DNA from: Succiniclasticum ruminis DSM 9236
GTDB lineage: Bacteria; Bacillota; Negativicutes; Acidaminococcales; Acidaminococcaceae
Length of the DNA stretch: 64,000 nucleotides
Direction of reading: 5' to 3'
NCBI RefSeq assembly: GCF_900112895.1
Contig: NZ_FONL01000001.1
Location: 124,001-188,000 of the forward strand
The notes beneath the pieces are model-generated. The model did no database searches. It saw only the letters and a program-made list of their open reading frames with translations, and had not been told where the DNA came from. Positions 3,028 through 18,734 of this stretch are shown piece after piece; position 1 is the first letter of the stretch, and each line of letters starts with the position of its first letter. The translations under genes were made by a program, and so were the position numbers.

Positions 3028-5838
3028 TTATTTTCCCAGCTTCGCCTCAAGCGCCGCCAGCCTGGCTTCCAATGTTTCAATCTTTGCCGCCTGCTGCGCA
3101 TTTTCTTCCGTAAGGCTCACGATCTTCCTGGCCATGGCCGCCTTGCTGGTGGAAACGCCTTTGTCCAGCGCGAAGCTCACGCCAACATTCAACAGGTTTT
3201 CTCCGTTGCCCATACTGCCGCCCATGCTGAACAGCACCTGGTCGTTGGGACGGTAGAACAGGCCTAACGCCATGGCGTTGGCACTCCGGTAATTACCGAA
3301 GCCTGCCGCCGCGCTGAACTTGCCGTCCGTGTCCATCGGATGCAGGGCTGCCAGAGCTGCCGCGCCGGCGCCCACTTTTTCCACCTTGCTGTCCACATTG
3401 CTAATGCGGTGGCTGAGTTCATCAATGCCAGCTCCTGCGCCGCCTGCCAGAGCCGCTATTTCCGCATCCAGCGCGCCCAGGTTTTCACCGACGCTGTTCG
3501 ACGCCTTCACATAATTGCCGTCTGCCGTTGTGCCGATGGCATCTTCATTCTTCTTTACCTGAGTATCCAATGCAGTCAGGTTATCTGCCGTGCTGTCAGC
3601 CGCTTTAATATAATTGCCGTCAGCACTTACCCGGGTCTCCGTAAATACCGTACCGCCTGTTACGATGCCGGTATCACCGGAAGCAATCGTGCCATTGGTA
3701 ACCACGTTTACCGCATAAGTTTTTGCATTTCCGTCAGTGCCGTCTGTTACAGTAGTATTTGTGCCGTCTACTACTTTTACGGCCTCTTTGGCCAGGTCAC
3801 GGACTACGGTTTTCCCGGAATCGGTAATATTATCCAACGATTTATTTGCCTTTCCGTCAATCGCAGCAGACTGTAACTGTAACGCTTCATACACCGTGCC
3901 GCCGGTCACTACGCCTGTGTTGCCGGATTCCACTTTTCCGTCTTTCTTCAAAGTCAGTGTTCCGGAAGAATCAAAAGCAAAATCTTTGGTGTCTGCTTTT
4001 ACGCTGATTTCATTATCTGCTATGGAAACACCTTTTCCGGCCGTATATACTGCCCCTTCCGCCACCTTTTTCAGCTGCGCCACGTTCACGGCATCGGTAT
4101 CCTTGGAGCCTGCCGCCACACCGGTAATCTGGCGGGTAATACTCTTGGTATCATCACTGCTGTCAATATAGCCTACTGCAATATCATTCGCAGTAGATAT
4201 CCAGGCACTCCCTGTATCACTGTCTGTTTTCCGGTAAGCATCCGTCGCGCCCGCTGTACGGAAAGCCACTGATCCGCTGCCCAAGGCCACCGCATCCGCT
4301 ACGGTAACTTTAGCTCCCTTGCCGACGGCAGCAGAATTATCCGCTCCTGTGTCAACGACGCCGCCTAAAGCTGCCAGGGAGTTTTCCGCCATCGCCTGGG
4401 ACGAATCACCAAACGCCGTGGAATAATCACCGCCGGCTACCGACTTGTGGCTCCAGGCCGTGGAAGCCACACCACTGGCTTCTGTTTTAATACCAAAGGC
4501 CGTAGAAGCTAACCCGCTGGCAGTGCCGCCTTTGACATAATTAGAGCCATCGTGGTAACCGCCCCAAGCAGTAGCGCCTGATCCGCTGGCTTCTGTCTCT
4601 CTTCCAAAGGCCGTGGCATACTCACCCTTGGCAGCCGTACCACTTCCGAAGGCCGTTGAAGCTAACCCGCCGGCTATCGAGCCATTTCCAAATGCCGTTG
4701 ACCATACTCCGCCGGCTTCTGTAAAAGCACCGAACGCTGTAGAAGCACTTTCGGTGGCCTTTGTACCATTGCCCCAGGCCGTGGAATAATTATTGCTGGC
4801 CGTTGTTCCACTGCCAAACGCCGTGGCATACTCACCCTCGGCAACCGTACCGCTTCCGAAGGCCGTAGCGCCTTCGCCTTTGGCCGTTGTTCCCTCACCG
4901 AACGCCGTGGCACCTTTGCCGCTGGCCGTAATTTTACTACCTCCGCCAGATGCATAGCCAAACGCGGTAGCGCCTTCGGCTTCTGCAGAAATGCTTCCGC
5001 CTTCTTCAGCATAGCCAGACGCTGTAGCACCTCTCCCGCTCGCAGAAATGCTTCCGCCTTCATTAGTGCGACCAAAGGCTGTTGCGCCCCACTCTTCTGC
5101 TTTAATGGCACCGTCGCTGGCAGCGCCAAAAGCTGTCGCACCCATTTCCGTTGCTAATATCTGACCTTTTTCTCCGTAAGCACGTCCAAAGGCTGTAGCG
5201 CCTTCCTTATCGTTCGCCCCTCCTCCGGTTCCGGCTGATATCTTTCCGCCCATCGTAGCGCTGCCAAAGGCTGTAGCGCCTCCCCCTTCTGCCGAAATGG
5301 CTCCGCCTAACGTAGCATATCCGTAAGCCGTAGTGCCAATCTCGGCTGCTTTAATGCTGGGCGCATCATAACCACTTTTTTTTGTCCCGACATAACCGAA
5401 CGCCGTGGAATAATCGCCGACGGCTTCTGTTCTCATACCAAACGCCGTGGACCCTTCACCGTTTGCTGTTGTCGAAGCTCCAAACGCCGTGGAATAATCG
5501 CCGAAGGCGTTTGCCTCACTTCCGAACGCCGTGGAAGCTAAACCGCGTGCTTCTGTCCCAATTCCGAACGCTGTGGAATCATCGCCAGTAGCCCATGCTT
5601 GGAAACCGAATGCCGTGGCATTATTACGTTCTGCTTTGGTATTTGAGCCCCAGGCAGAAACATTGATTACTGCTGTCCCAAAAACATTACCGCTTCCTGA
5701 AACTTTGGCAGTACCTTCATTGTCAGCGCCCCACGCCACAGGCAGGCTGTATGCCCCTGTCAGATACGTACTCAGCAGCAGACCGCACAACACCCGTGCT
5801 GCCAGTTGTTTTTTGTTGGTTGTCCGGAAATTTGTCAT
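3028..5838 (-). CDS. YadA-like trimeric autotransporter adhesin
   Basis: A 936-residue surface protein. Residues 1-38 are an extended signal peptide. About 45-500 consist of dozens of head repeats built on STAFG or GATAFG every 14-25 residues (YadA head/Hep_Hag type). A neck and stalk follow (about 500-820) with TGVVTGGTVYEALQ-type and DAVNVAQL motifs. A C-terminal anchor (about 806-893) with four predicted beta strands (FSAAAGFGNY to LNVGVSFAL) would form the 12-stranded trimeric barrel. After the barrel comes a 43-residue coiled coil (894-936), which ordinary YadA proteins lack. AGGAGGT upstream sets the start. It is transcribed alone. Role: adhesion to host or other cells, inferred from family. 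Confidence 0.9.
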   Translation of the reverse strand: MTNFRTTNKKQLAARVLCGLLLSTYLTGAYSLPVAWGADNEGTAKVSGSGNVFGTAVINVSAWGSNTKAERNNATAFGFQAWATGDDSTAFGIGTEARGLASTAFGSEANAFGDYSTAFGASTTANGEGSTAFGMRTEAVGDYSTAFGYVGTKKSGYDAPSIKAAEIGTTAYGYATLGGAISAEGGGATAFGSATMGGKISAGTGGGANDKEGATAFGRAYGEKGQILATEMGATAFGAASDGAIKAEEWGATAFGRTNEGGSISASGRGATASGYAEEGGSISAEAEGATAFGYASGGGSKITASGKGATAFGEGTTAKGEGATAFGSGTVAEGEYATAFGSGTTASNNYSTAWGNGTKATESASTAFGAFTEAGGVWSTAFGNGSIAGGLASTAFGSGTAAKGEYATAFGRETEASGSGATAWGGYHDGSNYVKGGTASGLASTAFGIKTEASGVASTAWSHKSVAGGDYSTAFGDSSQAMAENSLAALGGVVDTGADNSAAVGKGAKVTVADAVALGSGSVAFRTAGATDAYRKTDSDTGSAWISTANDIAVGYIDSSDDTKSITRQITGVAAGSKDTDAVNVAQLKKVAEGAVYTAGKGVSIADNEISVKADTKDFAFDSSGTLTLKKDGKVESGNTGVVTGGTVYEALQLQSAAIDGKANKSLDNITDSGKTVVRDLAKEAVKVVDGTNTTVTDGTDGNAKTYAVNVVTNGTIASGDTGIVTGGTVFTETRVSADGNYIKAADSTADNLTALDTQVKKNEDAIGTTADGNYVKASNSVGENLGALDAEIAALAGGAGAGIDELSHRISNVDSKVEKVGAGAAALAALHPMDTDGKFSAAAGFGNYRSANAMALGLFYRPNDQVLFSMGGSMGNGENLLNVGVSFALDKGVSTSKAAMARKIVSLTEENAQQAAKIETLEARLAALEAKLGK

Positions 5839-6069
5839 GGCTGTACCTCCTGTTATTTGAAAAAAACATGCTATATTTATGCTAATCTATTATATTGATT
5901 ATGAATATAATACTTCAGTTTAATTATATTTTATCTTCGTGAATATCACAATTTTTTTAACATTTTTCAGGAATTGTATAGTTTTCTTTTGGAATTATGT
6001 TTCGTATGTGACAATTCGTTAAGCAGAGCCTTTTCCTTATAGCGCTATGATTCAAAGAAAAAATTTGCA

Positions 6070-6082
6070 GGAAAAGTTTTCC
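6070..6082. promoter_or_regulatory. Palindrome GGAAAAGTTTTCC upstream of the importer promoter
   Basis: A perfect 13-bp palindrome (6-bp arms, central G) 18 bp upstream of the -35 box. Position suits an activator or repressor site; the protein is unknown. The rest of the gap 5839-6217 holds only AT-rich DNA, the promoter and a second palindrome. Confidence 0.4.
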
Positions 6083-6099
6083 AAAACCCACACAAATCA

Positions 6100-6128
6100 T
6101 TGAATCATTTATGGGCATGCGTTATAAT
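6100..6128 (+). promoter_or_regulatory. Sigma-A promoter of the ABC importer operon
   Basis: TTGAAT at 6100-6105 and a consensus TATAAT at 6123-6128 are separated by exactly 17 bp. The predicted start lies about 6135, 80 bases before the binding-protein gene. Confidence 0.8.
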
Positions 6129-6135
6129 AATAGAG

Positions 6136-6154
6136 TAAACTTCCCATAAGTTTA
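6136..6154. promoter_or_regulatory. Operator-like inverted repeat at the transcription start
   Basis: TAAACTT-ccat-type inverted repeat: TAAACTT (6136-6142), spacer CCCAT, AAGTTTA (6148-6154), perfect in both arms. It starts 7 bp after the -10 box, so a bound repressor would block initiation. It does not obviously match the classic Fur box; the regulator is unknown. Confidence 0.55.
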
Positions 6155-6217
6155 CATTACCCTTATGATAATTTTAAAATCGTATTAAAATTTTAAAAAT
6201 CAAGGAGGAGAAGTTTT

Positions 6218-7267
6218 ATGAAAAAAACGTATGTTGCTGGTTCCCTGATGCTGGTTATGGCTCTCATGATGGCCGGTTGCGGCGGCGGGGACAAAAAGGC
6301 TGACGCCCCGAAGAAAGACGCTCCGAAAGCGGCAGCTGCCACCGATACCGTAATGCTGTATTCGTCCATGCAGGAAGACCAGCTGAACGCGGTTAAAAAA
6401 GCCTTTGAGAAGAAATATCCCAACATTAAGATGGATTATTACTTCGCAGGCACCGGCAAAGTTAAAACCAAAATCTTCACCGAAGCAAAAGGCGGCCAGG
6501 TTGCTGCTGACGTAATCTGGGTTGGCGACCCTGCCGACTATATCGGATTCAAAGCCGACGGGAAGATCCTCCAGAAATATGAATCTCCGGAAGCCAAGAA
6601 CATCGATAAGGCCTTTATCGATCCGGAAGGTTTCTACACCGGCGCCCGTATGATGAACATGGGCATCGCCTACAACACCACCAAAGTTAAGAAGGAAGAA
6701 GCCCCCAAGACCTGGAACGATTTACTGGATCCGAAATGGAAAGGCCAGATCGTTATGACCGACCCGGGCACTGCCGGCACCACCAAATACGCGGTTGGCG
6801 CATTGATGGCCAACAAGGATTACGGCCCTGCTTTCTTTGAAAAACTGAAAGCTAACGGCACGGAACTGCAGTCAGGCACCACCGCTTCCCACAACCAGAT
6901 CGCGGCCGGCGCTTACAAAGTCGGCATGTGCCTGGACTATGTTACCAACAACCTGAAAGCCAAAGGCTCCACTATCGACTTCGTATATCTGGATAAAGAT
7001 ATCGTTTCCATTTTCAGCCCCGTGGCTCTGGTTAAAGGCGCCAAGAATGAAAAGAACGGCAAACTGCTGATTGACTTCATCCTCTCCAAGGAAGGCCAGG
7101 AAGTTCTGGTTGCCAACAACCTGCTGTCCGTCCGCAAAGACGTAAAACAGAAGGGCGAAAGCGCCGAAACCATTGCCAAACGCGCTATGAAGGTTGACCT
7201 GCAGGCACTGGCAACCGGTTCCAAAGATATGCTGAAACAGTTTGACGGCATCTTCAAGAAAAAATAA
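6218..7267 (+). CDS. ABC transporter substrate-binding lipoprotein, iron(III)/phosphonate type
   Basis: A 349-residue periplasmic binding protein. The signal peptide ends in the lipobox MMAGC with lipidated Cys21, followed by a Lys/Ala-rich linker and a class 2 binding fold (about 43-349; LYSSMQEDQLNAVKKAFEKK, then ADVIWVGDP, TWNDLLDPKWKG). These motifs belong to the FbpA/FutA/PgtC-like group that binds ferric iron, 2-aminoethylphosphonate or phosphoglycerate. No clear Tyr-Tyr iron pair can be assigned by eye, so the substrate stays open. AGGAGGAG precedes the start. It is first in a four-gene operon and is followed by a partial terminator that would favour its excess over the transporter. 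Confidence 0.85.
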   Translation: MKKTYVAGSLMLVMALMMAGCGGGDKKADAPKKDAPKAAAATDTVMLYSSMQEDQLNAVKKAFEKKYPNIKMDYYFAGTGKVKTKIFTEAKGGQVAADVIWVGDPADYIGFKADGKILQKYESPEAKNIDKAFIDPEGFYTGARMMNMGIAYNTTKVKKEEAPKTWNDLLDPKWKGQIVMTDPGTAGTTKYAVGALMANKDYGPAFFEKLKANGTELQSGTTASHNQIAAGAYKVGMCLDYVTNNLKAKGSTIDFVYLDKDIVSIFSPVALVKGAKNEKNGKLLIDFILSKEGQEVLVANNLLSVRKDVKQKGESAETIAKRAMKVDLQALATGSKDMLKQFDGIFKKK

Positions 7268-11419: not shown

Positions 11420-11902
11420 TCAGTTTTTATAACCGTGGGAAGCGTCATATTCTTTGTTGGCTTCCAGTGCTGCTTCCTGGGTCGCTTTGTCTTTAGCTAC
11501 CGCTTCTTTCCAGCTTTCATCAGCCGGAGCGGCAACTTTCTCAACCGCAGGGGCGGCCGCGGGTTCAGCCGGCGCGCCGTTTGTATAACCGTGGGCCTTG
11601 TCGAAATCTTTGTTTTCCTTTACCGCCTCAGCCTGGGTTGCTTTGTCCTTTTCCCATGCGGCGTTCTTGTCAGCAGCTACCTTTTCCGCCTTCTTTTCCG
11701 CAATTTCTTCTTTGATCACTGCGGCCGCTTCATTCTTGTAGCCGTGCGCTGCGTCATAGTCCTTGTTTTCCTGTAATGCCGCGGCCTGGGTCGCTTTATC
11801 CTGCTCCGGAGTCGTCGTTACCGTTTGCGCGAAAGCCGTGGAAGCAAACAGACAGGCCAGAACGCCTGCAACCATCATGGATTTTTTAACTACATGTTTC
11901 AT
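11420..11902 (-). CDS. Exported protein with three copies of a DKATQ...HGY repeat
   Basis: A 160-residue protein with a signal peptide (cleavage after AFA near residue 25). The mature part is three copies of one about 23-residue unit, DKATQ-x-A-x5-NK-x-(Y/F)D-x2-HGY-x-N, separated by Ala/Lys/Glu-rich helical linkers. No known domain is recognised. The ATG at 11902 is preferred over an upstream GTG at 11911 because GAAAGGGG lies 8 bases before it. An extended -10 (TGATATAAT) stands at 11960-11968. It diverges from the CHASE2/FecR-like/CHAT operon, so shared regulation or function is possible but unproven. Confidence 0.75.
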   Translation of the reverse strand: MKHVVKKSMMVAGVLACLFASTAFAQTVTTTPEQDKATQAAALQENKDYDAAHGYKNEAAAVIKEEIAEKKAEKVAADKNAAWEKDKATQAEAVKENKDFDKAHGYTNGAPAEPAAAPAVEKVAAPADESWKEAVAKDKATQEAALEANKEYDASHGYKN

Positions 11903-11959
11903 AAAACACACCCCTTTCAGATTTTTAACCCTGAGAACACTACATGAACTCTTTATTAA

Positions 11960-12058: not shown

Positions 12059-12087
12059 TTGTAAAAAGAAACTTCATATAATATAAT
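12059..12087 (+). promoter_or_regulatory. Promoter of the CHASE2/FecR-like/CHAT operon
   Basis: TTGTAA at 12059-12064 and TATAAT at 12082-12087 with a 17-bp spacer, about 95 bp upstream of the first gene. The surrounding DNA (11903-12187) is very AT-rich and otherwise empty, apart from a small hairpin CTGCAA/TTGCAG at 12140-12160 that spans the possible ribosome site. Confidence 0.65.
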
Positions 12088-12187
12088 AAAATTGATAAAT
12101 TATAAGTTGGATATTAAAATAAAATGAACTGAAATGTAACTGCAAGGAATGTAGTTGCAGCTTTTAACAGGGCTGGTGATTAAATTA

Positions 12188-13654
12188 ATGAAAATGAATA
12201 AGATAGCACAGTATTTAAATTTTAGAAAATGGCCGAAAGCCAAACAACATGAGTTTCTGTTTAATCTTGTCCTTGGCATCGGGTTTATGGTTGTCTTTAT
12301 TTTGCTCCAAAATACAGCAGCGCGCCAGGCAGTGATTAATTCCTGGTTCGATAAGTACATTGCCTGGAGATTTGAAATAGACAGCAATAAATTTATATTA
12401 CAAAATGTATTGCCCGGTTTAAAAAAGAGTGATGCAAAAAAAGTTTCAGATAATATTGTGTTTTTGCGTTTTGACAGGCAGGCATTTAAGACATTGGGAC
12501 GCCCTGTTATTACACCGCGGGATAAAGTGGCTGACCTGGTTAATATTGCCTATAAGGGCGGTGCCAAAGTTATCTATCTGGATATGCTGTTTTCTGAACG
12601 TGATTACTCTCCAGCCCCGGCGAAGCCGTTGGCGGGCGATGTTACAGCAAAAGACGGATTAAGCAGGGACAGGACATTAGAGGATTTACTCAATGAGATA
12701 AAGAACGATGCCGGGTCGCAGACAAAGGTTTTACTTCCGTTTGAAACATATGAAATAGACGGAAAGCTGAAGGATATCATATTTTCATCAAAAGGGGAGT
12801 CAATCATTGATAATCATAAAATATTTGCAGTTACCCCGAAGTTTACAAGAGGCAGTGATTCCCGCGCCCGTTTCTGGATGCCCTATGAGGGATTAAAAGA
12901 CCAGGATAATAAAGGAAAAATAGCCGATGTGCTCTGGTCAGTTCCAATGACTGCATTAAGCCTGTTTTACGGAGACGGACAGCAGCTTGTAAAACTGAGA
13001 GAAGATATTTTGAAAAGAGACAGGTTTAACATTGATGATGAAGAATTCATCCTCGAATTGCCGGATCGCAGCGGGGCCTTTACGTTTTACAGGGAGAACT
13101 ATAAAAATAATGCTTCCGTCAGGGATTCGGAACATCTGCAATATAACAGGATACAATACACCCTTATGCAGGATCCGATTGATAAAAGGACTATAAGCAG
13201 TGATCATATCGGCAGCTGGATGAGAGACAGTTCCCATATAGATAATGAATATATTAAGTTTAAAGATAAGATTGTAATTATCGGAAGAGACGATCCGGAC
13301 TGTAAAGATTTCCACAGTACTCCGGTTGGCATAATGGCGGGAATGTATGTTCATGCAAACAGTATTGCGACAGCCATGGGAGAAACGCAGCCGCATCTTA
13401 CAACAACCGGCAGGCAAGTAATGGTTGATATATTACTAATTCTGCTGACCGCCTATGGGTATGCGCTTTTACCTTCATATTTAGTTAAATATTTCCTTAC
13501 ACTTCTGACATTGATTTTCGTTCCCTGTTCCTTTTTGTATTTTTGTCAGACAAATGAATTTGTTTATATCAGCTGGGCTTTTGCCAGCATAGGGGCATTG
13601 CGTTTATGGTTGTCTGTATTTTTTACCAAAATACAGCAGCGCGCCGGTCGGTGA
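12188..13654 (+). CDS. CHASE2-domain membrane sensor without an output domain
   Basis: A 488-residue protein: one transmembrane helix near 24-42, a large extracytoplasmic CHASE2 domain (about 50-405; IVFLRFDRQAFK, GGAKVIYLDMLFSE, KDKIVIIG-RDD, STPVG-MAGMYVHANSIATAM), then three C-terminal membrane helices. CHASE2 senses extracellular signals and normally feeds a kinase, cyclase or CHAT domain after the last helix; here the protein ends about 7 residues after it. The start is uncertain: ATG at 12188 has a weak GGCTGGTG site, while an in-frame TTG at 12155 has AAGGA 6 bases upstream. It is first in a three-gene operon with exported FecR-like and TPR-CHAT proteins, likely partners. Base composition is clearly AT-richer than the flanking operons. 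Confidence 0.85.
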   Translation: MKMNKIAQYLNFRKWPKAKQHEFLFNLVLGIGFMVVFILLQNTAARQAVINSWFDKYIAWRFEIDSNKFILQNVLPGLKKSDAKKVSDNIVFLRFDRQAFKTLGRPVITPRDKVADLVNIAYKGGAKVIYLDMLFSERDYSPAPAKPLAGDVTAKDGLSRDRTLEDLLNEIKNDAGSQTKVLLPFETYEIDGKLKDIIFSSKGESIIDNHKIFAVTPKFTRGSDSRARFWMPYEGLKDQDNKGKIADVLWSVPMTALSLFYGDGQQLVKLREDILKRDRFNIDDEEFILELPDRSGAFTFYRENYKNNASVRDSEHLQYNRIQYTLMQDPIDKRTISSDHIGSWMRDSSHIDNEYIKFKDKIVIIGRDDPDCKDFHSTPVGIMAGMYVHANSIATAMGETQPHLTTTGRQVMVDILLILLTAYGYALLPSYLVKYFLTLLTLIFVPCSFLYFCQTNEFVYISWAFASIGALRLWLSVFFTKIQQRAGR

Positions 13655-13751
13655 TTAATCAAACGCTTTACAGATGCTGTAAAAATACGTTGTTATATTA
13701 AAAAAGTTTTTGTATTTCATAAATATATTAAAAACGGAGGTGTACGAAATT

Positions 13752-14699
13752 ATGAAGAAACTTAACTTAAGAGCACTCTTTTGCATCCTTACGGTGATTG
13801 CATGTATGACATGTTCCGTTGCTTTTGCGGAAGATGAGGTTGCCGAATTTGTAAACTATGATGATATTGCGAATGAAGTTAAGATCATACATCCTGAAGG
13901 TTTGCAGCCAAAAGGTTCAAAAAGGCTGTTGTATAATGGCGATATAATTATGGGAGATACGCAGAAATTTTCAATAACATGTAAAGAATATGCGAGGGTG
14001 GTAAATTTAGATTCTAATGCTTGTATCATTATATATGAGCCGCCTACGGGGGCATCGCAAATAAGTAATGTGGTACTGAATTCGCTGGGACCATTTTGTT
14101 CCGCTCCGAAAAATGTGGAAGGTTTTGTTTATGGCGGAACCCGTGGACCGGCATCTCCTGCCGGTGACGGCAGCCTGAAAAAAGCAGCACAAAGCCTTAC
14201 GCCCCGGCCGGGCTGGAACGTTACGCTCTTAAAGAACCAGGAAGTGAATTTTGCATGGAAAAATGCAAATCATGAAACATTTGCCATTATTGACGGAAAC
14301 GGAAATAAAATTTATGAAAAGAATATCAAAAATCTCAATGGCCTGAGCATTGTTCCGGCCGATATTAAACTGGAAGCAAATGTTCCGTATTCATGGGGTT
14401 ATGATGGGGAATATACCGAATTTAAATTTACGGTTCTTGATTCACAGACAGAAACAGAAGTGATGGCGAAACTTGCGGAGCTTGACAAAATGAAGTTAAC
14501 AGAGGAAGAACGCATTTCAAGGAAGGCTCTTCTTGTACAATTGATCAGCGACAGCTTCCCGGATAAAGTCAATTTGTACTGGCTGAGTTCACAGTGGCTT
14601 GGAGCGTTTGAGAATCTGGGAGCTAATGAGAAGCAGGCACAGTATTTGCTGCAACGGTGCAAAAGACACCTGGATCAGGAAATGAATCAAAATCAATAA
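13752..14699 (+). CDS. Exported FecR-like / DUF928-like protein
   Basis: A 315-residue protein with a signal peptide (MKKLNLRALFCILTVIACM..., cleavage after AFA). Residues about 30-115 resemble a FecR-type fold (RLLYNGDIIMGDTQKFSITC, then ARVVNLDSNACI). A GGTRG motif near 133 leads to a second beta-rich domain (about 150-240) and a helical tail; GTRG followed by that layout recalls the DUF928 family found beside CHASE2 and CHAT genes in cyanobacteria. Both matches are by eye. ATG 13752 with GGAGGTG upstream is preferred over the in-frame start at 13710, which would precede the signal peptide. It sits between the CHASE2 and CHAT genes with no terminator on either side, so it may link sensor and protease in the periplasm. 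Confidence 0.7.
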   Translation: MKKLNLRALFCILTVIACMTCSVAFAEDEVAEFVNYDDIANEVKIIHPEGLQPKGSKRLLYNGDIIMGDTQKFSITCKEYARVVNLDSNACIIIYEPPTGASQISNVVLNSLGPFCSAPKNVEGFVYGGTRGPASPAGDGSLKKAAQSLTPRPGWNVTLLKNQEVNFAWKNANHETFAIIDGNGNKIYEKNIKNLNGLSIVPADIKLEANVPYSWGYDGEYTEFKFTVLDSQTETEVMAKLAELDKMKLTEEERISRKALLVQLISDSFPDKVNLYWLSSQWLGAFENLGANEKQAQYLLQRCKRHLDQEMNQNQ

Positions 14700-14757
14700 A
14701 TGATTTTGCGCAAAAATTGCAGGCTGGAACCACTGTGTTAGAAAGGGGCGTTTGAAA

Positions 14758-17700
14758 TTGCGTTTTCAATACGGATTACTCGCGTTTTGTCTGGCTATTA
14801 ACATATTGAATGTACCAACGTCTGCTTATGCTGAAACAAAAGATGCGACGTCAGTAATTCAGCAGGAAAATAAAAAGCCTGTATCAGAAGCAAACATTGT
14901 ACAATCTGACGATATACAGCCTGACGAAATGGTTGCAATTGAGAAAGCCCTTGAAGCAAAATCAAAGTTCTATAAAGATGTCAGTCCCTTTTTTGATTTA
15001 CAGCCTTTGCCCCGTTATTTACGTGACGGTAAAAAACAAATGCAAAAGTATGATGTAAATACTGACAAGGGTATTAAGGATTATGTAAATCACAGGCACG
15101 CGGAATATGAGAAGAAAGTTAAAAATCCTGTTCAGGCAAAAGCCATAAAGCTGAAGGCTGAGGACAGACTGGACAGTGCTGTTAATTTCAGCCGGACAGC
15201 GTTTTTAAAGCTTGTGACTGATTTAGAAAAAATATACAGTAATAAAAATCATTCATTAATTCTGGCTGTAGAATCGTTACCTGGTGTTTTTAATATGGGT
15301 GTGCCTGAACATACCTTTATACAAGATATTTTAGAACGTATAGAAAGAACAAAATACGGCGATGGCTTCCGGGACTATGGGTTAAGGCACGCTTCCGAGG
15401 ATTTAACACAAATCATGCGCGCGGCTTTTGCGGAAAACGAGAAAAATTATTATTTAGATAGTTTTAAAGAACTGGAAATAATGACGGCGGGCGTAAAACC
15501 TGAAACGTATGAGGATGAACTCCAACAAATGTTAAAAATTATGTTTCGGGCTTTGGAACAGGAAAGTAATATAAACCTAAAAGCATTTCGGATTAAAAAC
15601 CAGATAAACCTTCTGCAAAAGTTTTATCCTGACAGACGTATGGATATATTGAAACGGGAGATCATGCTGGCAGACTGTTACAGTATCCTGGGTGAGAACG
15701 CCCGGACAATCTCTGAAAGTAAAAGATTATTACCTTTAGTTCAGGACACTTTTGGAAAAACAAGTGACGAAGCACTGTCCCTGATGGATATTCTGGGAAG
15801 AGAATATGAAGTCGCGGGAAAATATCGTGACAGTGAAAGAATCTTTAAGGAAATGACAGAGATCCGGTCAGCAAAATACGGTAAGGATTCCCCACAGGCA
15901 CTCTCCGGTTTTAATGCGCTTGCCCGTATATATAGTAAATTGGGAAACTATAATGAAGCGGGGGCATTATTAGGGAAAATTAATCCTGTCGCAAAACAGG
16001 TATTGCCGAAAGAAGATCCGGTCAGAAGTGACATTGGTCTTTCTCAATATATATTTACTAAATTAATATTGAAGGATGACAATGATAAATTTAATCTCAG
16101 TTCTCTGATAGTAAACGGCAATGGAACAGCAGCTGCGTTACGCAGGTTGAATACAGACCGCGCATTTGAACGATGGTTTAAAATGAATAACCTTTTAGGA
16201 CTGGCCCTGAAATATGATTTGAAATCAGTTGCCGTGTGTATGGAAAAGTTCGGCGATACCCATCATGTAACGCTGCGTACGTTGTGCGATCTCTGTAACA
16301 CATATTTAAAACTTAATTGTTTGGAAGATTCGCTGGAATTAGCTGCTATTGTATTGCAAAAAAGCCGTGGGCGTTACGGTGAGATGCACCCATGTACTGT
16401 GAACGCGTTACATACGCTGGCTGATGCGTACAGGGAATCGGGCAAAGCCAAAGAAGCAAAGGAACTGGACGAACAGGCCCTGACTGTTTGCGGAACCGTG
16501 TTTGGCAATAATTCACTTGAAGAACTGGATGCCCGGGCAAGGTTAGCGCAGGACTATTGCCGGGAAAAGAAATTTGATCCGGCCATAAGTATATATGAAG
16601 AAGTAGTCCGTTCTTATAAAAGCCATGGAACGGACAATGCAAAGCTATGGGACCTGATGATAAATCTGGCGGAAGCATATGAATTAAACGGTGACTATGC
16701 AAAAGCAATCAGTTTATGTGATGAGGTCAGCAGGTATAGCCCAAATCATTTTAAAATGGGGCAACTCAATCAGGACCATATAAAAGCGGTGCATATTTTG
16801 GCCAATTCATACAGGAATTCGGGCCAGACAGAATTTGCTGCAGATAAATATATAGAAATGCTGCAGGCACTTGAGAAAGTCCGTCAAATTGATATTAAGA
16901 GAGATGAAAAACTTTCGCAATGGTTTGTTACTATGGTTCCCGTTTACAGAGAACTGGCCTCTTTATATCTCGCAGATGAAAGTAAAGGAACTGAAATATT
17001 AAAACTGATGGATCTTTGCAAGGCAAGGATTTTGACAGAGCGGTATCATGAACAGATGATGCTGCACGCAGACGGAATCAGTGATGAAGAGCAAAAAGAG
17101 GTGGATGACCTTTTAAAAACAATACGGATTCATGACAGAGATATGGAAACGGCCAAACAAGATGGAGATAGTGATTTCTACTTAAGTTTAACCGTTTCAA
17201 AAATGAGGCAGCTTGATAAGTATTGGCGCTGCATAGCCAGTTTAAATGAGAAACACCCTGAAGTCATACGTTTTGGCGGTTTCAGTTTAACAAATAATTC
17301 GGATATCCTGCAAAAACTTCAGGCCATTCCCCAAGATGCCTGTTTCATTGACTTTACCGTGTTGCGGGAGGATAATCAGGATAATCTGCTTCTGGCCTGC
17401 ATTGCCAGTCGTGGCGGAACTGTTAAAGCAGTTCCGATACCGGTTGATAAAAGCTTTTTTGATAACTGTCACATTTATCACGATATACTTTCTTATCCTT
17501 CTCTTGAAGGTATGCAGGGGGAAGATAAATATCTGTGGAAAAGGCAGGACGGAAGTTACAGAATTGTAACGGATAACGAATATAAAGAACCGGGCGCAAG
17601 CCGCGTCAGAACTGCGGAAGAGTTTGAAAATGCGCGGCGGGAGTTAGCTGCCAGGATAAGCAAAAGCCTGATCGCGCCGGTTAAAGACGTGATACCGGCG

Positions 17701-18621
17701 TCTGCATCCAGATGGATCATCTCTCCCGACGGGGCGTTGAACAACGTACCGTTTGAGACGCTTGTATACAATGGAAAAGCAATTATTGATTCGAAAGATG
17801 TCAGTTACGTCCCGTCTTTATCCGTGATGAAGATGATGAAGGACCTTGCAGCAGGACGGTCTCAAACATTAGACCGTAAAGAACTGTTTGCGATGGGCTG
17901 CCCTGATTACGGCGGCTTTGCATCTGCCAAAAAGCGCAGCAGTATGCAGGATCTGGATAAGTCTGTGCAGGCGGTTCATCAGAAAGGAAATTCCGGCATA
18001 GTACCGCCGGATATCCTGTCAGGATTGAAATGGAATGACCTTCCCGGAACCGGGAAAGAACTAAACGGAGTCTCCACGTTGTTTGCAAAAGACAGGCAAA
18101 TTACTTTTAAAGGAAAAAATGCTTCCGAAAGTAATTTAAAATCCTTAGATAAAAATGGAGAACTCGGAAAATATAAGTATCTTTTGTTTGCGACGCACGG
18201 GCTGTTCGTACCGGAGTTCCCGGAATTCAGCTCTATTGTATTAAGCCAGGATGCGGCGCAGAAGAATAAAGGATTCGGGAACGACGGTTACGTTACTGTC
18301 GGCGAATGGATGGGGTACAAACTCAACAGTGATTTAGTCTATCTGTCGGCGTGTGAATCCGGGCGTGGGAAATACCAGGTTGGTGAAGGCATCGTAGGCA
18401 TACCGTATGCGCTGACTTTGGCAGGCAACCAGAATACGGTGATGAGCCTGTGGAAGGTGGAAGACGATTCCACGGCGGAATTTTCAAAGGCGTTTTTTGA
18501 AAAACTGAGCCGGGGCGTACCGCAGGTGAAAGCGTTAAACGATACGAAACGGGAATTTTTGCGACACAAAAGGTTCAGCAGCCCGTCAGTGTGGTCGGCG
18601 TTCCTGTTGTATGGGATTTAG
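14758..18621 (+). CDS. Exported TPR-CHAT (caspase-like) protein
   Basis: A 1287-residue protein with an N-terminal signal peptide (cleavage after AYA near residue 26). About 250-730 is helical with several 42-residue kinesin-light-chain-type TPRs (for example LHTLADAYRESGKAKEAKEL and NLAEAYELNGDYAKAISLCD). The C-terminal 350 residues form a CHAT domain with catalytic His1147 in FATHG and Cys1199 in SACESG, both present. CHAT proteins are caspase/separase-related proteases; TPRs recognise partners. Two TTG starts are possible; 14758 is chosen because AAAGGGG at 14742-14748 is 9 bases away, against 3 for 14752. Export makes it a predicted periplasmic or surface protease, controlled perhaps by the CHASE2 and FecR-like partners. 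Substrate unknown. Confidence 0.88.
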   Translation: MRFQYGLLAFCLAINILNVPTSAYAETKDATSVIQQENKKPVSEANIVQSDDIQPDEMVAIEKALEAKSKFYKDVSPFFDLQPLPRYLRDGKKQMQKYDVNTDKGIKDYVNHRHAEYEKKVKNPVQAKAIKLKAEDRLDSAVNFSRTAFLKLVTDLEKIYSNKNHSLILAVESLPGVFNMGVPEHTFIQDILERIERTKYGDGFRDYGLRHASEDLTQIMRAAFAENEKNYYLDSFKELEIMTAGVKPETYEDELQQMLKIMFRALEQESNINLKAFRIKNQINLLQKFYPDRRMDILKREIMLADCYSILGENARTISESKRLLPLVQDTFGKTSDEALSLMDILGREYEVAGKYRDSERIFKEMTEIRSAKYGKDSPQALSGFNALARIYSKLGNYNEAGALLGKINPVAKQVLPKEDPVRSDIGLSQYIFTKLILKDDNDKFNLSSLIVNGNGTAAALRRLNTDRAFERWFKMNNLLGLALKYDLKSVAVCMEKFGDTHHVTLRTLCDLCNTYLKLNCLEDSLELAAIVLQKSRGRYGEMHPCTVNALHTLADAYRESGKAKEAKELDEQALTVCGTVFGNNSLEELDARARLAQDYCREKKFDPAISIYEEVVRSYKSHGTDNAKLWDLMINLAEAYELNGDYAKAISLCDEVSRYSPNHFKMGQLNQDHIKAVHILANSYRNSGQTEFAADKYIEMLQALEKVRQIDIKRDEKLSQWFVTMVPVYRELASLYLADESKGTEILKLMDLCKARILTERYHEQMMLHADGISDEEQKEVDDLLKTIRIHDRDMETAKQDGDSDFYLSLTVSKMRQLDKYWRCIASLNEKHPEVIRFGGFSLTNNSDILQKLQAIPQDACFIDFTVLREDNQDNLLLACIASRGGTVKAVPIPVDKSFFDNCHIYHDILSYPSLEGMQGEDKYLWKRQDGSYRIVTDNEYKEPGASRVRTAEEFENARRELAARISKSLIAPVKDVIPASASRWIISPDGALNNVPFETLVYNGKAIIDSKDVSYVPSLSVMKMMKDLAAGRSQTLDRKELFAMGCPDYGGFASAKKRSSMQDLDKSVQAVHQKGNSGIVPPDILSGLKWNDLPGTGKELNGVSTLFAKDRQITFKGKNASESNLKSLDKNGELGKYKYLLFATHGLFVPEFPEFSSIVLSQDAAQKNKGFGNDGYVTVGEWMGYKLNSDLVYLSACESGRGKYQVGEGIVGIPYALTLAGNQNTVMSLWKVEDDSTAEFSKAFFEKLSRGVPQVKALNDTKREFLRHKRFSSPSVWSAFLLYGI

Positions 18622-18697
18622 AGAATTTGGTTTTCAGTACTATAAAAGCTTTAACAAAAAATCTGCTTAAAGCCATATAAAATTTAAGAGTGTAAGA

Positions 18698-18734
18698 TAA
18701 AAAAACCAGCGGCCTTCATAACCGCCGGTTTTTA
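18698..18734. terminator. Terminator after the CHAT operon
   Basis: AAAAAACCaGCGG, loop, CCGCcGGTTTTTA: a GC stem with A and T flanks between convergent genes, able to stop both the CHAT operon and the minus-strand gene at 18792. Confidence 0.8.

Follow-up and report, generated by a model that had tools for sequence, protein, structure and literature searches.

A CHASE2, MtxA-like and TPR-CHAT gene trio of Succiniclasticum ruminis as a candidate envelope signalling module with a protease output

In this study we describe three consecutive plus-strand genes of Succiniclasticum ruminis DSM 9236, which lie in a 64,000-nucleotide stretch of contig NZ_FONL01000001.1 (positions 124,001 to 188,000; the window) and encode a CHASE2 membrane protein, an apparently exported middle protein of an unnamed family and an apparently exported TPR-CHAT protein. 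Our results support the view that the trio is a co-inherited module, shared by several families and present in a second phylum as well. On balance we lean towards a signalling role at the envelope, of the FecR/MtxA-CHASE2 type, in which an exported caspase-like protease would be the output. This reading builds on the genes themselves, their linkage and co-inheritance, the export-type N-termini, a conserved His/Cys pair in CHAT and a CHASE2 protein in which no cytoplasmic output domain is recognised. A preliminary description of the same genes had proposed an extracytoplasmic module in which sensing activates proteolysis. Its observations are partly confirmed and its interpretation is partly supported: an extracytoplasmic sensor and protease module is still the best reading in the light of the co-inheritance and the CHAT N-termini, and the step from sensing to proteolysis is one that we infer.

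The trio was followed through a sample of 380 genomes of the class; most of the named relatives are metagenome-assembled genomes (MAGs). CHASE2 is found in 34 of these genomes, the middle family in 12 (plus one weak partial match) and CHAT in 13, all over the Pfam cut-off, with eight strong matches (157 to 189 bits) and five weak ones (at most 46 bits). CHASE2 and the middle family accompany CHAT in all eight strong-CHAT genomes, and profile searches find no CHASE2 in the five weak-CHAT genomes. The three genes are adjacent on one strand in seven of the eight; in the eighth, G193, they are split, with CHASE2, the middle gene and the beginning of a TPR gene at one contig end and CHAT at the end of another contig. 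Some variation is seen in the layout. The order in G183 is CHASE2, CHAT, middle, and its module contig holds no more of CHASE2 than the C-terminal part; a gene for a 173-residue exported protein is inserted into the G175 module. Outside the class, a Nitrospirae MAG locus (L056) has the full trio in the same gene order, so that the conserved neighbourhood on which the earlier proposal depended is found within the class and beyond it. The named relatives that carry the module comprise MAGs of Acidaminococcaceae and Selenomonadaceae from the ruminant gut, a reactor MAG of Sporomusaceae and the Nitrospirae MAG. The clustering of the three genes is far more than expected by chance; we attach no probability to the co-occurrence because the genomes share ancestry. 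The pairwise identities of the three proteins also correlate (r 0.88 to 0.98; 28 pairs from eight genomes), a correlation to which species relatedness contributes. In Acidobacteriota the middle family gives one weak partial match in 189 genomes, and neither a CHAT nor a middle partner is recognised at an Acidobacteriaceae CHASE2 locus (L059).

The TPR-CHAT protein of the window matches Pfam CHAT with 178 bits (cut-off 24) and TPR_12 with 108 bits. His1149 and Cys1201, which we take to be the CHAT catalytic motif, are both present, as had been described earlier, and this pair is invariant in all nine module CHAT domains, across two phyla and at identities down to 23%. Our view of export and topology is based on hydropathy and inspection. 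The N-terminus of the TPR-CHAT protein is by inspection of the export type, ending AYA-ET. Within the first 40 residues, the strongest hydrophobic core of 11 residues scores 2.69 in the window CHAT and 2.87 in the window middle protein, within ranges of 2.17 to 3.42 for the nine module CHATs and 2.64 to 3.16 for the nine middle proteins of the modules. Among the window open reading frames (ORFs) scored alongside, ATPases, hydrolases and the like mostly stay below 1.8 and membrane or exported proteins are mostly above 2.2. A stricter 19-residue hydropathy test is passed by six of eight CHATs; the window and G087 CHATs fail it. With an export-type N-terminus in nine of nine cases, the module CHATs look exported.

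For the CHASE2 protein the earlier assignment as a membrane protein holds: it matches PF05226 with 72 bits (cut-off 26.3) over profile positions 4-254 of 257, and crude hydropathy finds hydrophobic segments at residues 18-44, 408-428 and 429-453, which are also helices in the structural model. The topology predicted from this is an N-terminal transmembrane helix, a periplasmic CHASE2 domain and C-terminal transmembrane helices. No second Pfam family is found over cut-off in the window protein and no cytoplasmic output domain is recognised; therefore the output probably lies elsewhere than on its cytoplasmic side, and the co-encoded, apparently exported CHAT is the candidate. A fold search with the model (predicted local distance difference test score, pLDDT, 67) gave no convincing match (best Z 4.4), and the only PHROGs match is a weak one (E 0.0007) to an entry of unknown function. 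Searches of NCBIfam and PADLOC found nothing over cut-off or specific for any of the three proteins. The CHASE2 gene has a 66-nucleotide direct repeat (86%) at its start and end (12275-12340 and 13594-13659), as does that of the congener (77%), and the C-terminus of the protein seems to derive from a duplicate of the N-terminal DNA of the gene, read in another frame. Two relatives, G087 and G299, have CHASE2 joined to an nSTAND1 ATPase (301 and 333 bits) in a protein whose start is DUF4062-like, though below the cut-off of 24.7 (19.6 and 23.3 bits). Such CHASE2-nSTAND1-DUF4062-like fusions, at L042 9740-12793 (minus strand) and L043 7315-10392 (plus strand), are without the C-terminal transmembrane helices.

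The preliminary description had called the middle protein an exported FecR-like protein. The export-type N-terminus (core 2.87) stands, and FecR (PF04773) as a family label is unsupported, as none of the ten middle-family members matches a Pfam family over cut-off. Profile searches of all three proteins consequently back CHASE2 and CHAT and leave FecR aside. A FecR profile search of 200 genomes of the class was positive in one and negative in the window's own genome. Compared by hhalign with four FecR domains, the middle family aligns in register with a probability of only 1.6% (P 0.032), and its score exceeds all 100 column shuffles despite that probability. DUF928 (PF06051) reaches at best E 0.12, under cut-off, in two of the ten members; the hhalign comparison gives P 0.0009 with two sequences (probability 22.9%) and 0.0089 with five (4.6%), and the score of the latter exceeds 100 of 100 column shuffles with a probability of just 4.6%. 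DUF928 is thus only suggestive as an identity, with no Pfam match over cut-off. An AlphaFold model from a ten-sequence alignment (mean pLDDT 72) places, behind the signal peptide, an N-terminal beta region, an immunoglobulin (Ig)-like domain and a helical C-terminal domain. VIA-align ranks the C-terminal domain of MtxA (4z29) first for this model, over 140 of 169 residues with a root mean square deviation of 3.1 and a Z of 8.9 that barely exceeds the 7 to 8 typical of this tool for models without clear relatives; the runner-up has Z 4.3. Foldseek also ranks MtxA first, at E 1.6e-3, with no entry at 1e-3 or below, and 4z29 is absent among the 60 listed of 827 matches of the middle-family profile to PDB sequences. 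We assign the middle protein to an unnamed family in which the model of the C-terminal half resembles MtxA and the N-terminal strands are at most FecR-like. The middle gene adjoins CHASE2 in the eight module genomes and at L056, being reached across CHAT in G183, and no CHASE2 gene adjoins it at L046, L077, L079, L080, L081 or the partial copy L078. A lone MtxA-like gene in a similar neighbourhood is seen at L046, L079, L080 and L081, in four genomes of one genus.

The mechanism that fits these proteins best might be a protease switch in the periplasm, possibly with surface proteins as its targets. The exported MtxA-like protein would meet the periplasmic CHASE2 domain and report a cue that arises at the outer membrane or in the periplasm, and CHASE2 would then hold or release the exported TPR-CHAT protein. 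The TPRs could dock partners, and the His/Cys pair would cleave an envelope or surface protein. Here we infer the physical contacts, the control of CHAT by CHASE2, the activity of CHAT in the periplasm and a surface or secreted substrate.

The gene neighbourhoods of relatives provide some context for a surface role. Both G087 and G299 encode, in the same-strand cluster, a SlipAM protein (69.5 and 32.7 bits against a cut-off of 22) and another protein with a TbpB-like barrel at its end, which scores slightly below the cut-off of 26 (25.6 and 25.2 bits). Two Nitrospirota loci are arranged similarly to each other: L131 has the order two-partner secretion exoprotein, ShlB transporter, TPR-CHAT, CHASE2-cyclase and, on the opposite strand, DUF928, and L132 has a partial 1499-residue protein without a Pfam match, a ShlB transporter, TPR-CHAT, CHASE2-cyclase and DUF928. 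TPR-CHAT with CHASE2 therefore recurs near surface-protein machinery at four loci, and none is recognised beside the other modules or L056. CHASE2 as such is common in Nitrospirota (124 of 188 genomes); among the best 30 loci, viewed with flanks of about 1.5 kb, two have CHAT beside CHASE2 and four have a FecR profile match. The preliminary description had also pointed to co-occurring CHASE2 and CHAT genes in cyanobacteria. On plasmids, no annotated CHASE2 lies beside CHAT in the two cyanobacterial regions viewed, where the neighbours are CHAT, caspase-family or neither, or in the three Pseudomonadota regions; these five were picked from 30 matches listed of 306 records, the PLSDB tables are incomplete and cyanobacterial chromosomes were outside the scope. 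The same-strand cluster of the module at L043 contains, at 5159-7261 (plus strand), a gene for a 700-residue protein with an integrin-type VWA domain, Calx-beta and beta-propeller repeats. The nearest surface-protein gene seen in the window encodes a YadA-type trimeric autotransporter adhesin (3028-5838, minus strand), 6 kb off and outside the operon. At L136 6520-9413 (plus strand), in the genome of L056, a CHASE2-cyclase gene is directly followed by a DUF928 gene, another pair of CHASE2 and accessory gene.

There are several observations that weigh against a dedicated sensor and protease trio with a surface role. Firstly, the partners are not always together: 26 of the 34 CHASE2 genomes of the class lack a strong CHAT, and the middle family occurs without CHASE2 or CHAT beside it in four of 12 class genomes and in one of two Nitrospirota genomes, so it must have another use. 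In the former four (G050, G083, G084 and G085, of one genus) the CHASE2, CHAT and FecR profiles find nothing within the 18 to 19 kb that surround the middle gene. The latter two, among 198 Nitrospirota genomes, are that of L056, which has a second, partial copy, and G565, where the middle gene has no CHASE2 or CHAT neighbour. Secondly, the surface-protein context is uneven. SlipAM is found in three of nine module genomes (beside the module in G087 and G299, and twice on other contigs in the genome of L056) and was not found in the other six; none of 14 control genomes is positive. No secretion gene is recognised beside the trio in the window, the congener or L056, and the neighbour of the CHASE2 gene in G193 is a DNA methylase gene (L037 3490-4557, plus strand; N6_N4_Mtase, 140 bits). 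Thirdly, the likeness to MtxA scores close to the background range given above, and no module CHAT has a sequence or profile match to a solved structure, so that the protease activity, a prediction, rests on family membership and the His/Cys pair.

A more specific version of the protease switch can be drawn by analogy. In the LapD/LapG adhesin switch an inner-membrane receptor controls a periplasmic Cys protease which acts on a surface adhesin, and LapD-type receptors read c-di-GMP with cytoplasmic domains. Pfam finds CHASE2 only and no c-di-GMP domain in the window protein, so membership of the LapD/LapG system fails; the protein families differ and the resemblance is one of idea only. As a tentative idea that we would not yet favour, the trio might be a caspase-fold counterpart, in which CHASE2 and its MtxA-like partner gate an exported CHAT that cuts or releases surface proteins delivered by Slam-type or two-partner translocons. 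If this were true, the outputs of CHASE2 receptors would include, next to cyclases and kinases, proteolysis outside the cytoplasm. A CHAT that is exported and travels with a membrane receptor and an exported adaptor would bring caspase-like proteolysis into the diderm envelope, and a role would be suggested for MtxA and DUF928 proteins as accessory partners of CHASE2 receptors.

Another possibility, which we consider unlikely, is a conflict or defence module: it would sense envelope damage by a phage, toxin or competitor, and proteolysis by CHAT would then kill the cell or arrest it, in line with proposals for many TPR-CHAT and STAND systems. The nSTAND1 ATPase and DUF4062-like start of the G087 and G299 CHASE2 proteins speak for it, since nSTAND1 and CHASE2 are both named in a published account of conflict systems (PMC8195603), and so does the DNA methylase gene of G193. 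The distribution is also patchy: the operon is present in two of 14 genomes of the genus, several of which are incomplete, and its guanine-plus-cytosine (GC) content is 0.416, whereas 90 other overlapping 6.4-kb stretches of the window all have at least 0.448. The trio thus looks mobile in its distribution and AT-richness. However, the CHAT looks exported, PADLOC yields just a weak BovA match on it (E 0.0074; none on the CHASE2 or middle protein), surface-protein secretion genes neighbour the module in two relatives, and no integrase or phage gene was recognised around the module by eye in the ORF lists, where no profile search was made. A search for plasmid relatives of the 8.1-kb region found no near match, and likewise none for the Nitrospirae CHASE2 and middle proteins.

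We give rather less credit to a role in outer-membrane assembly or quality control, with TPR-CHAT as a periplasmic scaffold which processes proteins or escorts them to a translocon and CHASE2-MtxA as its inner-membrane anchor. The Slam-like and two-partner secretion neighbours of some relatives and the TPRs (up to 108 bits) would fit such a scaffold, but CHASE2 is a receptor domain in the published systems compared, and no translocon gene is recognised beside the window trio. That CHAT is an inactive receptor scaffold in a trio that senses only seems improbable: it would agree with the lack of a solved relative by sequence, but not with a His/Cys pair kept in all nine proteins of two phyla at identities down to 23%, or with a ratio of nonsynonymous to synonymous substitution (dN/dS) of 0.215.

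The layout of the operon is largely as first described (Table 1). The ORF listing gives three plus-strand ORFs at 12155-13654, 13710-14699 and 14752-18621, the likely ATG of the middle gene is preceded by AAAACGGAGG, and the short gaps are confirmed at 97 and 52 or 58 bases, the latter depending on the TTG chosen for TPR-CHAT. A terminator scan likewise agrees that there is no plus-strand terminator-like site within the operon. The claim of one promoter does not survive: the site is a 10/12 match, and the scan total of 23 sites is no better than chance (18.7 +/- 4.1 in shuffles), so we reject it. Compared with the copies of the congener G012, all three genes are under purifying selection (dN/dS 0.15, 0.12 and 0.22 for CHASE2, middle and CHAT).

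Table 1. Positions in the window of the three genes, the predicted catalytic codons and candidate control signals.
Feature	Position	Strand	Remark
CHASE2 inner-membrane protein (predicted)	12188..13654	+	start ATG 12188 or 12194; longest ORF from 12155
Middle protein, apparently exported, 315 aa, modelled as MtxA-like, unnamed family	13752..14699	+	start ATG 13752
TPR-CHAT protein, apparently exported, 1289 aa	14752..18621	+	start TTG 14752; alternative TTG 14758
Predicted catalytic His1149 codon of CHAT	18196..18198	+	letter checked; invariant in 9/9 CHAT domains
Predicted catalytic Cys1201 codon of CHAT	18352..18354	+	letter checked; invariant in 9/9 CHAT domains
Promoter-like site, TTGTAA-17-TATAAT	12059..12087	+	unproven; absent from congener alignment
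Terminator-like hairpin, interval between operon and convergent gene	18701..18733	.	scored on - strand only

G012, the sole congener with the operon, has the three proteins at 95, 95 and 94% identity to those of the window. To regard the operon as fixed in place would be wrong, since it is inverted as a unit in this genome: window 12187-18683 aligns in inverted orientation with L038 8418-14926, and the breakpoints lie near 12187 and between 18683 and 18770. Because of this inversion, the window's upstream region, including the promoter-like site, is not shared with G012. A 43-nucleotide inverted repeat (84%) flanks the operon in G012. A gene at 11420-11911 (minus strand) encodes an exported-looking protein of 163 residues with three degenerate repeats and no Pfam family, and a relative of it lies across the operon in G012.

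The combination of CHASE2, an exported CHAT and this middle protein is not described in the open-licence literature that was searched, but parts of it have counterparts in known systems. CHAT proteases appear there as CRISPR effector partners or as candidate immunity and cell-death proteins. The TPR-CHAT protein of Craspase (Csx29) shares the architecture of TPRs and a CHAT protease. Unlike the trio, Csx29 is an RNA-guided partner of Cas7-11, whereas the window CHAT starts with an export-type N-terminus and is partnered by CHASE2; this N-terminus, predicted in all nine module CHATs, would argue against a Craspase-like cytoplasmic location. A caspase-like domain and CHASE2 are also combined in Trichodesmium, in a fused metacaspase-CHASE2 protein with the caspase predicted to be cytoplasmic (PMC3501461).

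An exported partner encoded next to a CHASE2 protein is a wider theme. A FecR gene lies directly upstream of CHASE2 in all six Pseudomonadota CHASE2 records opened from 33 matches listed, four seen by annotation and Pfam and two unannotated ones by Pfam (FecR 60 and 69 bits). The outputs of the CHASE2 proteins vary, with cyclases in S. meliloti and Methylocystis and histidine kinases in Variovorax and Eleftheria, and the three long CHASE2 proteins (about 600 residues) of the class that were scanned are all CHASE2-cyclases. In Sinorhizobium meliloti an exported FecR-containing protein, NsrA, is likewise encoded directly beside a CHASE2 membrane protein, the cyclase CyaK, and the response to an outside protein signal needs both (PMC7529298). 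There the output is cytoplasmic cAMP and the partner is a FecR/beta-barrel protein of the outer membrane, 1200 residues long, in which a true FecR domain is present (57 bits), unlike in the trio. CyaD1 without its CHASE2 domain produces cAMP constitutively (PMC5498481).

The Burkholderia BiofilmReg operon, found via a biofilm-defective mutant, encodes a response regulator, a LysM-FecR protein and a CHASE2 histidine kinase (PMC5192318), and resembles the trio in placing an exported partner and a CHASE2 sensor in one operon; the same layout is found at L091 and L093. Its output is a two-component system, without CHAT. MtxA of Magnetospirillum resembles the middle protein in its length of about 313 residues, its signal peptide, beta region, Ig-like and helical domain, and the adjoining CHASE2-cyclase gene, which follows mtxA in its cluster; the mtxA deletion is reported to show no visible phenotype under standard conditions (PMC4439547). 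This locus has a cyclase in the place of CHAT, and the likeness of the two proteins is that of a fold model. The Nitrospirota loci L131 and L132 differ from the trio in that their CHASE2 carries a cyclase, DUF928 replaces the MtxA-like protein and secretion genes are part of the cluster, but they share with it a TPR-CHAT gene beside CHASE2; at both loci a DUF928 protein is encoded nearby.

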